Shown here: positions 51,294-52,635 of the stretch, one piece after another | How the letters are laid out: every line of letters begins with the position of its first letter | How positions within the stretch are numbered: position 1 is the first letter of the stretch | Assembly: GCA_030432595.1 (NCBI GenBank) | Contig: JAUIGU010000002.1 | Span: 186,001-250,000 of the forward strand | Length of the DNA: 64,000 nt | Reading direction: 5' to 3' | Source: Phycisphaerae bacterium | GTDB taxonomy: Bacteria > Planctomycetota > Phycisphaerae > Phycisphaerales > Phycisphaeraceae | Made by a program: the position numbers and the translations under genes | The notes under the pieces: generated by a model | The model's input: only the letters and a program-made list of their open reading frames with translations | Database searches by the model: none | What the model was told of the DNA's origin: nothing

Positions 51294-52349
51294 TCAGGAA
51301 ACCGCCGACGCTTCCGCACACGTCCGGTCCACCGCTTCGGCGATGCGTTGGAGCTGCGGCATCAGCTCGGCGAGCGTTGCGGGGGTGATGGACTGGGCGC
51401 CGTCGGTCCAGGCCTTCTCGGGGTTGACGTGCATCTCGATCGCCAGGCCGTCGCAGCCGGCGGCGACGGCGGCCTTGGCCATCGCGGGGACCAAATGGGC
51501 CTTGCCCGTGCCGTGGCTGGGGTCGATCACGACGGGCAGGTGCGTGCGGTGGTGCAGCTCGGGCACGACCGACAGCGACAGCGTGTTGCGAGTGTGGTCC
51601 TCGAAGGTGCGGATGCCGCGCTCGCAGAGCACGACCTGTGTGTTGCCCCCGGAGAGGATGTACTCGCAGGCTTGCAAGAGCTCGTCGAGCGTCATGCTCA
51701 TGCCGCGCTTCATGAGCACGGGTTTCGGCGAGTCGCCACAGGCTTCGAGCAACTTGAAGTTCTGGCTGTTGCGCGTGCCGATCTGGAGCATGTCGGCATA
51801 CTCGCTCACGAGCTCGACGTCGGTGGTGGTGAGCACCTCGGTGACGATGGGCAGGCCCGTGGCTTCGCGCGCGGCGGCGAGCATCTTCAGGCCGTCTTCG
51901 CCGTGGCCCTGGAAGGAGTAGGGGTTGGTGCGGGGCTTGAACGCGCCGCCGCGCAGCGCGTGGGCGCCGGCGGCCTTGGCGGCCTGGCCCGCTTCGATGA
52001 TCGCGTCTTCGCCCTCGACGCTGCACGGGCCGGCGATGACGGGGATCGCGTCACCGCCGAACGTGACGGCCTGCGAGTTCGTCGCGGGCCCGCCGATGGT
52101 GACTTCGCTGCGCTGCTTGGGGTCGGCCTTGGCGGCGAGGGTGTAGGGCTGGAGGACTTTCATGACGCGGTCGACGCCGGGCGCCTGCTCGAACTTGTCG
52201 CCGTCCTTTTTGCGGTCGTCGCCGATGACCGCGACGACGGTGAGGTTCGTGCCCTGGATCGGGTGGTCTTTGAGGCCCATGTCGCGGACGAGCTTGCAGA
52301 CGTGCTCGACGTTGTCCTGGGTGGCGCTAGGGTGCATGACGATGATCAT
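51294..52349 (-). CDS. aroF: 3-deoxy-7-phosphoheptulonate synthase (DAHP synthase, type I-beta)
   Basis: The 351-residue protein condenses phosphoenolpyruvate with erythrose 4-phosphate, the first step of aromatic amino acid synthesis. An N-terminal ferredoxin-like regulatory domain (MIIVMHPSATQDNVEHVCKL, about 1-85) precedes a TIM barrel with VIAGPCSVEG, RGGAFKPRTNPYSFQG, MKRGMSMTLDELL and VVIDPSHGTGKAHLV, which hold the metal and substrate ligands. The ATG at 52349 has AAGGA about eight bases upstream. Upstream lies a leader ORF rich in Phe, Tyr and Trp followed by a terminator, so the gene is probably controlled by attenuation as well as, perhaps, by feedback through the N-terminal domain. 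Confidence 0.93.
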   Translation of the reverse strand: MIIVMHPSATQDNVEHVCKLVRDMGLKDHPIQGTNLTVVAVIGDDRKKDGDKFEQAPGVDRVMKVLQPYTLAAKADPKQRSEVTIGGPATNSQAVTFGGDAIPVIAGPCSVEGEDAIIEAGQAAKAAGAHALRGGAFKPRTNPYSFQGHGEDGLKMLAAAREATGLPIVTEVLTTTDVELVSEYADMLQIGTRNSQNFKLLEACGDSPKPVLMKRGMSMTLDELLQACEYILSGGNTQVVLCERGIRTFEDHTRNTLSLSVVPELHHRTHLPVVIDPSHGTGKAHLVPAMAKAAVAAGCDGLAIEMHVNPEKAWTDGAQSITPATLAELMPQLQRIAEAVDRTCAEASAVS

Positions 52350-52361
52350 GGGGCGGTCCTT

Positions 52362-52466
52362 TACATTGCCGAATGAGGAATGCCGAGTGCCGAGTTCGGG
52401 ACAACACAACGGGTGCGTTTGTGGCGGATTCTGTTCATTGGCAATCGGCAATCCGCACTCGGAAAT
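52362..52466. repeat. CCGAGTGC-type inverted repeat between attenuator and aroF
   Basis: ATTGCCGAATGAGG and TGCCGAGTGCCGAG near 52363-52394 are inverted at about 52440-52462 (GGCAATCGGCAATCCGCACT). Similar runs are common as intergenic repeats in planctomycete and related genomes. It extends the distance between the attenuator and the aroF ribosome binding site and may be a later insertion. Confidence 0.5.
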
Positions 52467-52499
52467 AAAAAAACCCGACGCTCGCCGCATCGGGGTTTG
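52467..52499 (-). terminator. attenuator terminator upstream of DAHP synthase
   Basis: Read on the minus strand, AAACCCCGATGC and GCGTCGGGTTT form an 11-bp stem with one bulged C and a GGCGA loop, followed at once by seven Ts (As at 52467-52473 on the plus strand). This is a textbook intrinsic terminator, placed about 30 bases after the stop of the leader ORF and about 120 bases before the aroF start codon. Its 5' side begins CAAACC, which can also pair with GGTTTG in the leader ORF. Confidence 0.85.
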
Positions 52500-52529
52500 A
52501 GGGCTTGATTCTTCAAGAATCCAGCGGGC

Positions 52530-52601
52530 TCAGACGGCTCCCGACACGGCGTGTGGCCGTGCAAACCAGAAAAAGCCGTCAAAATAGAACCGCGTGGACA
52601 T
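52530..52601 (-). CDS. aromatic leader peptide of the aroF attenuator
   Basis: This 23-codon ORF begins ATG at 52601 and ends TGA at 52530. Residues 5-13 are FYFDGFFWF, that is five Phe, one Tyr and one Trp in nine codons; it has no Leu, Ile or Lys. Such a run is expected where ribosome stalling senses charged tRNAs for aromatic amino acids. The coding RNA can fold (GACGGCT with AGCCGTC; CACGGC with GCCGTG). No Shine-Dalgarno is visible, and the -10 element lies six bases upstream, so the message may be leaderless. Confidence 0.8.
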   Translation of the reverse strand: MSTRFYFDGFFWFARPHAVSGAV

Positions 52602-52607
52602 GCCGTA

Positions 52608-52635
52608 AGTATGCCTGCGTGGCCGGGAATGTCAA
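52608..52635 (-). promoter_or_regulatory. promoter of the aroF leader
   Basis: On the minus strand TTGACA (52630-52635) is a perfect -35 box, followed by a 16-base spacer and CATACT (52608-52613) as -10. The ATG of the leader peptide begins at 52601. The -35 overlaps the stop codon of the GH2 gene that ends at 52632. Confidence 0.7.

Follow-up and report, generated by a model that had tools for sequence, protein, structure and literature searches.

The leader region of aroF

The window, by which we mean the whole stretch of 64,000 nucleotides analysed here, comes from a 4.39-Mb genome that is 99.1% complete and whose nearest named relatives, among the matches listed, are Phycisphaera sp. and Phycisphaeraceae MAGs, in agreement with the original prediction, which had called the genome planctomycete-like. 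The region of interest spans positions 52635–52467 on the minus strand and lies 117 nt 5′ of aroF (Table 1). The product of that gene scores 446.2 bits with PRK08673 (cut-off 335) and 356.8 bits with TIGR01361 (cut-off 267.75), contains the domains PF00793 and PF18152, and has 1rzm and 3pg9 as its closest solved structures, so that the gene following the leader is indeed a type I-beta DAHP synthase gene, as had been proposed. Its start is the ATG at 52349, not position 52490 as in a mechanical ORF call, and the matches to relatives also begin at the equivalent of 52349. The upstream gene encodes a glycosyl hydrolase family 2 protein and ends at 52632, its TGA stop codon (52634–52632) being contained within the −35 box of the leader promoter. 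Between the terminator and aroF, positions 52352–52466 hold pieces of a dispersed repeat with 12 matches in its own genome (including itself), and the distance from leader to aroF is 69 nt longer than in locus L002, the closest relative.

Table 1. Features of the aroF leader region, and tRNA genes at three related loci (positions are those of the window unless a locus is named)
Feature	Position	Strand	Basis or remark
−35 hexamer, TTGACA; overlaps TGA of the upstream gene	52630–52635	−	sequence, promoter scan
−10 hexamer, CATACT, with 6 nt between its end and the leader ATG	52608–52613	−	sequence, promoter scan
Leader ORF, 23 codons plus TGA, MSTRFYFDGFFWFARPHAVSGAV	52530–52601	−	translation; kept in relatives
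Aromatic control codons 5–13, FYFDGFFWF, the last being UUU	52563–52589	−	sequence
Segment 1, CACGGC, putative protector-hairpin partner of segment 2	52556–52561	−	predicted fold
Segment 2, GCCGUGUCGGG, antiterminator 5′ arm, within the leader ORF	52540–52550	−	covariation
Terminator hairpin, CCCGATGC-GGCGA-GCGTCGGG	52494–52474	−	followed by TTTTTTT
Segment 3, CCCGAUGCGGC, antiterminator 3′ arm; contains the terminator 5′ arm	52484–52494	−	covariation
Segment 4, GCGUCGGG, terminator 3′ arm	52474–52481	−	terminator scan, covariation
U tract of the intrinsic terminator	52467–52473	−	sequence
Shine-Dalgarno-like AAAGGA 5′ of aroF	52357–52362	−	sequence and comparison of relatives
aroF, type I-beta DAHP synthase, 351 aa, N-terminal ferredoxin-like domain	51294–52349	−	profile, domain and structure matches
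tRNA-Thr	L016 2577–2651	opposite to aroF	5′ of aroF
tRNA-Leu	L020 1292–1375		5′ of aroF
tRNA-Leu	L053 1331–1414		5′ of aroF

The leader region has three principal parts, all of them named in the original prediction. The promoter is sigma-70-like, and its two hexamers and their 16-nt spacer are as had been described; it scores 10 of 12 in a promoter scan, which finds one site of this quality in 3 kb where shuffled sequence would be expected to give 0.3, and because its −10 box lies so close to the leader ATG the transcript is predicted to begin at or next to 52601. The leader ORF likewise reads as reported, with its 23 codons and its aromatic run at residues 5–13, and has seven aromatic residues in ten. 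The terminator hairpin and its seven Ts are present too, although the stem has 8 base pairs (one of them U-G) and reaches the 11 originally given only if three A-U pairs beyond a C/U mismatch are counted; it begins 35 nt after the leader stop codon. Taken alone this terminator is at chance level, a 3-kb stretch having two sites of this kind and its shuffles 2.3; its support comes from relatives. The leader transcript as a whole has a predicted fold of −55.2 kcal/mol, compared with −41.7 kcal/mol for shuffles (z −3.8).

Conservation of the leader ORF, its RNA structures and its promoter

We scored as a leader any ATG-initiated ORF with at least five aromatic residues in ten, a threshold of our own. 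Among 1300 first-order random sequences (20 from the upstream region of each of 65 relatives) this level is reached by 26, at least six residues by 4, and the seven seen in the window by none. A first set of loci (L001–L030) was obtained by searching 61 genomes with the DAHP synthase, of which 58 matched and the best 30 of 58 were fetched. A leader ORF lies 5′ of aroF in 26 of the 29 loci that could be scanned (L011 has too little upstream sequence), as anticipated by the suggestion that Phe, Tyr and Trp codons should be conserved there in relatives, and no leader by this criterion was found in the remaining three (L006, L016 and L020). A second set of 35 loci (L031–L065), which share genomes with the first, gave leaders in 29 of the 34 with enough upstream sequence; none was found in L034, L047 or L053. 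Two further loci of this set have altered versions: that of L039 is poorer (FCDFFWLAQP), and L056 as read by eye has lost most of the aromatic run and retained a segment-2-like sequence and terminator sequence. At three of the loci without an aromatic leader (L016, L020 and L053) a tRNA gene sits just 5′ of aroF. The ORF is thus rich in codons for products of the pathway: at least six aromatic residues are present in 34 of 37 distinct leaders, a set that was picked by the criterion and is uninformative on loci falling below it. The excess of synonymous differences in the aromatic core is modest (0.54 observed against 0.35 expected, from 71 differences in 27 non-independent pairs).

A hairpin and U tract follow the ORF in 36 of the 37 leaders, the U tract beginning 48–75 nt after the leader stop codon; that of L002 is interrupted. 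Alignment A1 contains the 36 leaders with a terminator together with L031, which stands for L002. The pairings tested on it were named by hand, and the shuffle tests (500 shuffles each) ignore the relatedness of the sequences. The terminator pairing of segments 3 and 4 has 91.9% of its cells paired and changes on both sides in 6 of 9 pairs, and none of the 500 shuffles does as well on any of five measures. The antiterminator pairing of segments 2 and 3 comprises 11 bp (52550–52540 with 52494–52484; alignment columns 70 and 73–82 with 139–149), of which 83.0% of 405 cells are paired, compared with 33.9–45.1% when the pairing is slid by 1–3 positions. Both sides have changed in 8 of its 11 pairs, and shuffles match it in 0 of 500 cases on four of the five measures and in 3 of 500 on the fifth; its weak pairs are 70/149, which fails in 16 of 35 sequences, 78/143 (17 of 37) and 79/142 (11 of 37). 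The pair at columns 77/144 is G-C in 20 sequences and A-U in 9, and since the base in segment 4 stays G in three of those nine, the change cannot be put down to the terminator alone. Two compensated pairs occur in L054. In four leaders (L024, L028, L029 and L062) the stop codon falls inside segment 2 and the segment is still kept, which argues for selection on the RNA rather than on the peptide. A leader's own segments 2 and 3 pair better than segments combined across species in 30 of 37 cases (mean −18.6 against −16.1 kcal/mol), and the two mutually exclusive structures are balanced, at −18.6 and −19.0 kcal/mol. There is thus an intrinsic terminator between leader ORF and gene, found in 36 of 37 leaders with covarying arms, and an exclusive antiterminator that uses the 5′ arm of the terminator, and the compensatory changes that had been put forward as a check occur in both structures.

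Two other pairings fared differently. The antiterminator of the original prediction, GGTTTG with CAAACC, finds no support: across the 37 leaders 65.3% of its cells pair, a level reached by 415 of 500 shuffles; the four inner pairs are 81.1% paired, with no instance of a change on both sides; and the pairing region would be hidden beneath a ribosome stalled at the aromatic codons. Of the two hairpins proposed within the ORF, both are present as predicted folds, and the one joining segments 1 and 2 is weakly supported. As a single register it has 53.7% of cells paired, with 36 of 500 shuffles as high on this measure and 381–468 of 500 on the other four, so that the A1 shuffle tests give no support for one conserved register; in the local folds of single leaders, four or more of the 10 bases of segment 2 are paired in 36 of 37 cases, and these folds are hardly more stable than shuffles (mean z −0.7). 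No Rfam match over the gathering score was found in the window or in nine related loci, two weak matches lying far below the cut-offs, and membership of the T-box or another Rfam family is accordingly rejected.

A similar design was found outside the Planctomycetota, in the Geobacterales (the order of genome G560), where all 58 genomes gave a DAHP synthase match and the best 30 of 58 loci were fetched. A leader ORF, mostly of the form FxFWxGFYFRPSAR, lies 5′ of aroF in all 30, and a terminator by our criterion in 27 (three counted through loci with the same protein). The antiterminator here is GUCUGCCC with GGGCAGAC, in varied forms, with 93.8% of 240 cells paired and at most 56.3% when slid, changes on both sides in 5 of 8 pairs, and, out of 500 shuffles, none as good on four measures and 2 as good on the fifth. 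One clade (L239, L254 and L255) keeps the leader ORF and has no terminator by the criterion, and termination may differ there.

The position of the promoter is a further shared feature. A promoter scoring at least 8 of 12 is present within 60 nt of the leader ATG in all 37 leaders; such sites also occur in 420 of 1850 random sequences, and the weight therefore rests on where the promoter lies. The −10 box is 6–11 nt before the ATG in 32 of the 37 by script, and in 35 after corrections by eye (L022 is a tie of two sites, one at 10 nt, and counting from an in-frame ATG six bases farther upstream gives distances of 9 nt for L012 and 8 nt for L041), whereas 50 of the 1850 random sequences have a site 5–11 nt before their end. 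Shine-Dalgarno-like words (GGAG, GAGG or AGGA within 20 nt) precede 3 of the 37 leaders, compared with 37 of 37 aroF genes, and there is none before the leader of the window. Two of the three are L026 and L027, whose best promoters are 20 and 27 nt away; the third, L013, combines such a word with a close promoter. In Geobacterales, TTGAC begins 35–38 nt before the leader ATG in 28 of 30 loci, and Shine-Dalgarno-like words are found in 2 of 30. This geometry suggests that the leader peptide is leaderless, a possibility raised at the outset. Planctomycetes are counted in the available part of PMC5397173 among the phyla with signs of leaderless or S1-led starts. That the ORF is translated from a longer 5′ UTR, which would leave attenuation itself unaffected, seems rather unlikely: L026 and L027 would fit such an arrangement, promoters of this score are frequent in random sequence, and the start site of the leader is a predicted one, but the close spacing of the −10 box, the scarcity of Shine-Dalgarno-like words before leaders relative to aroF, and the position of TTGAC in Geobacterales all point the other way.

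The aromatic codons themselves are unusual. Phenylalanine codons are inverted in the 37 leaders relative to the aroF genes of the same loci (TTT:TTC 119:51 against 23:170), and tyrosine codons follow suit (TAT:TAC 35:20 against 29:189), while for the remaining codons the share with G or C at the third position is similar in the two (0.76 in leaders and 0.80 in aroF). The last Phe codon before segment 2 is TTT in 37 of 37 leaders. Geobacterales have TTT:TTC of 147:42 in leaders against 49:153 in aroF, with TTT as the last Phe codon in 29 of 30, and TAT:TAC of 44:46 against 65:144; in all of these counts the rows are related and p-values for the bias are therefore too good. An effect of the neighbouring base on the last TTT can be set aside, since before A the aroF genes have TTC by 61 to 5 and the leaders TTT by 30 to 2; before T the leaders are mixed (47 to 40) and aroF offers only 3 cases. 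Slow decoding or an unstructured U-rich stretch are possible reasons for the preference.

A proposed mechanism of attenuation and its alternatives

The arrangement of these elements suggests how they might act. A distance of 13 nt separates the end of the last aromatic codon from segment 2 (column 73) in 24 of the 37 leaders. The stop codon is found past segment 2 in 33 leaders and starts 8 nt downstream of the segment's end in 25. A ribosome reaches some 12 nt past the codon in its A site. With this footprint a stall on the aromatic run would free segment 2 and a ribosome at the stop codon would mask it, and we infer that the final W and F codons would carry the most weight. Transcription would start at or next to the leader AUG, and a ribosome would begin at the 5′ end of the transcript without a Shine-Dalgarno site. 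If Phe-, Tyr- or Trp-tRNA were short of its amino acid, the ribosome would come to a halt within the aromatic codons. With codon 12 or 13 in its A site, its front would reach over segment 1 and stop short of segment 2, which would be free to pair with segment 3, and transcription would continue into aroF. When aromatic amino acids are plentiful, the ribosome would arrive at the stop codon and cover segment 2, segments 3 and 4 would pair, and transcription would end at 52467. If translation were absent, the predicted hairpin of segments 1 and 2, the weakly supported one, would favour termination.

We therefore propose, with a probability of about 0.89, that aroF is controlled by a ribosome-mediated transcription attenuator of the trp/phe kind that senses aromatic aminoacyl-tRNA. 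Comparison of relatives reveals the ORF, the terminator, the antiterminator and their spacing, whereas the start site, the stalling and the direction of the response are inferred; the conservation of the leader, its terminator and its covarying antiterminator thus lend support to the attenuator originally proposed upstream of the DAHP synthase gene.

It is scarcely credible that the hairpin is simply the ordinary terminator of the glycosyl hydrolase gene and the leader a chance ORF. The terminator does lie downstream of the end of that gene at 52632, whose stop codon is overlapped by the −35 box, and terminator-like sites are no commoner here than in shuffles; nonetheless, ORF and terminator stay with aroF in relatives, the antiterminator covaries, 0 of 1300 random upstream sequences reach seven aromatic residues, and the aromatic run is conserved together with aroF, which speaks directly against a chance ORF. 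Control by Rho, or at the level of aroF translation, in place of an intrinsic terminator would account for the broken U tract of L002 and for the three Geobacterales loci (L239, L254 and L255) without a terminator by the criterion, but with hairpin and U tract in 36 of 37 leaders, covarying arms, and Shine-Dalgarno-like words of its own before aroF in 37 of 37 loci, it appears extremely improbable.

The leader peptide or a released leader RNA could also act in trans, as S. meliloti trpL does, with attenuation in a side role. The leader RNA here shares that design, being short, coding and probably leaderless, and so has a precedent (PMC7298713, in the part available), yet the length and C-terminus of the peptide vary among relatives and the stop codon moves into segment 2 in four leaders, and we regard trans action as the principal role as very improbable, while noting that it can be true in addition to attenuation. 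The reading that we prefer remains that of an attenuator, and the aroF leader appears to be a well-supported case of a known kind of attenuator in groups for which we found none described.

Known systems and wider distribution

The trpL and pheL leaders of E. coli combine a leader ORF, alternative 2:3 and 3:4 pairings, and stalling on cognate codons. The aroF leader resembles them in all three respects, with stalling here predicted, and differs in that its target is a DAHP synthase gene, it has no Shine-Dalgarno site, and its stop codon comes after segment 2 in 33 of 37 cases. The trp and phe attenuators of Enterobacteria are named in PMC11802643, in the part available. The closest known system is the aroR-aroF attenuator of C. 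glutamicum (Neshat et al. 2014, as described in the available parts of PMC11802643 and PMC4046766), in which stalling enhances transcription. There too a leader peptide precedes a DAHP synthase gene, and aroR contains Phe-Tyr-Phe; the planctomycete leader belongs to another phylum and has a longer run of F, Y and W. A list from 2005 (Table 7 of PMC1173090, Merino's predictions) places putative attenuators ahead of gene clusters that include a DAHP synthase gene, several of these being of type I-beta, in Vibrio, Thermus thermophilus, Thermoanaerobacter, Enterococcus and Bacteroides, with neither Geobacter nor a planctomycete in the part of that source available; this part describes no leader peptide and leaves the kind of attenuator unstated, in contrast to the leader ORF found here. 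The ORF is predicted to lie at the 5′ end of the transcript, as in the leaderless attenuators of S. meliloti (trpL; PMC7298713) and S. lividans (leuL, trpL1 and ilvL; PMC8079986), according to the available parts of those papers. There the leaderless start comes from transcript data and here it is predicted, and the phyla and target genes are different. The leader peptide of C. glutamicum ilvBNC is also reportedly made without a ribosome binding site, as Morbach et al. are said to have described in 2000, and that operon concerns branched-chain amino acids. Among the matches listed in the PMC literature, outside which subscription journals mostly lie, no attenuator from Planctomycetota or Geobacterales was found.

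Gene regulation in Planctomycetota is little studied, and this leader offers a strong and testable case of amino-acid sensing by the coupling of transcription and translation in that phylum, at the first step of aromatic synthesis. Its predicted leaderless layout raises the question of whether a ribosome that loads at the first base could keep near enough to RNA polymerase for attenuation to work. The choice of Phe codons, inverted in two distant lineages, hints in a way open to measurement at a possible role for decoding speed in the sensor. Since Geobacterales include species cultured in the laboratory, tests need no uncultured genome.

Model R1, built from A1, has one strong full-length match in its own genome (96.2 bits); there are 18 other matches up to an E value of 10, most of them over the terminator part only, the next best scoring 26.3 bits over positions 102–130 and two full-length ones having E values above 1. 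In 67 of 298 Phycisphaerae genomes the model has a match at E ≤0.01, as a rule a weak one over part of its length; the 14 matches of at least 54 bits span the full length and belong without exception to families f1 and f6. Seven weaker matches from other families were examined (L129, L130, L131, L135, L136, L137 and L142), of which three are leaders. Two of these, in family f11, precede a DAHP synthase gene (L129 and L130, the latter with a GTG start read by eye), and in the third (L137; family f17, genome G291; L315 2262–5224) a GWFGYFWF leader and terminator head a serS-aroF pair, a seryl-tRNA synthetase gene followed by the DAHP synthase gene.

In a sample of the phylum 191 of 246 genomes have a DAHP synthase match, and the regions upstream of 85 matches were surveyed, taken from the upper part of the list and not as a random draw. 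Leader and terminator are present in 22 of the 41 planctomycete matches whose identity is 54% or higher and in 1 of the 44 that fall short of this value; two of the 22 are from f6 and the others from f51, f58, f69, f72, f88, f92 and f101, and three have GTG or TTG starts. Random sequences allowed ATG, GTG or TTG reach five aromatic residues in 19 of 390 cases, with no terminator required. In L147 and L154 the gene start is not at the expected place, making their negative scores unsafe. A whole-locus scan of relatives found no leader by our criteria at 30 trpE-type (PF04715) and 25 PDT (PF00800) loci, with 25 of 30 aroF loci scoring as the positive control.

A DAHP synthase tree of 130 rows (8 further loci yielded no protein by script), made by a quick method with a midpoint root and carrying long-branch warnings, requires 15 label changes against 38.5 in shuffles. 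It keeps Planctomycetota and Geobacterales apart, which makes recent exchange between them unlikely, and either one old origin or convergence of the leaders may be fitted to it. A broader and tentative proposal, to which we give somewhat less than even odds, is that an old DAHP synthase attenuator has been retained in much of Planctomycetota and in Geobacterales; that in Phycisphaerales and Geobacterales its promoter would be fused to the leader AUG, with the ribosome joining at the first base; that a Shine-Dalgarno-like word precedes the leader instead where the promoter is farther away, as in L026 and L027; and that the Phe control codons would be held at UUU, the minor codon in aroF, to set the readiness to stall. 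Finally, an aromatic-rich ORF and terminator, as scored by script, also precede DAHP synthase genes at five loci (L083, L091, L101 and L102, from Chloroflexota or unplaced, together with L097) whose hosts are Chloroflexota, Rokuibacteriota and an unplaced bacterium.
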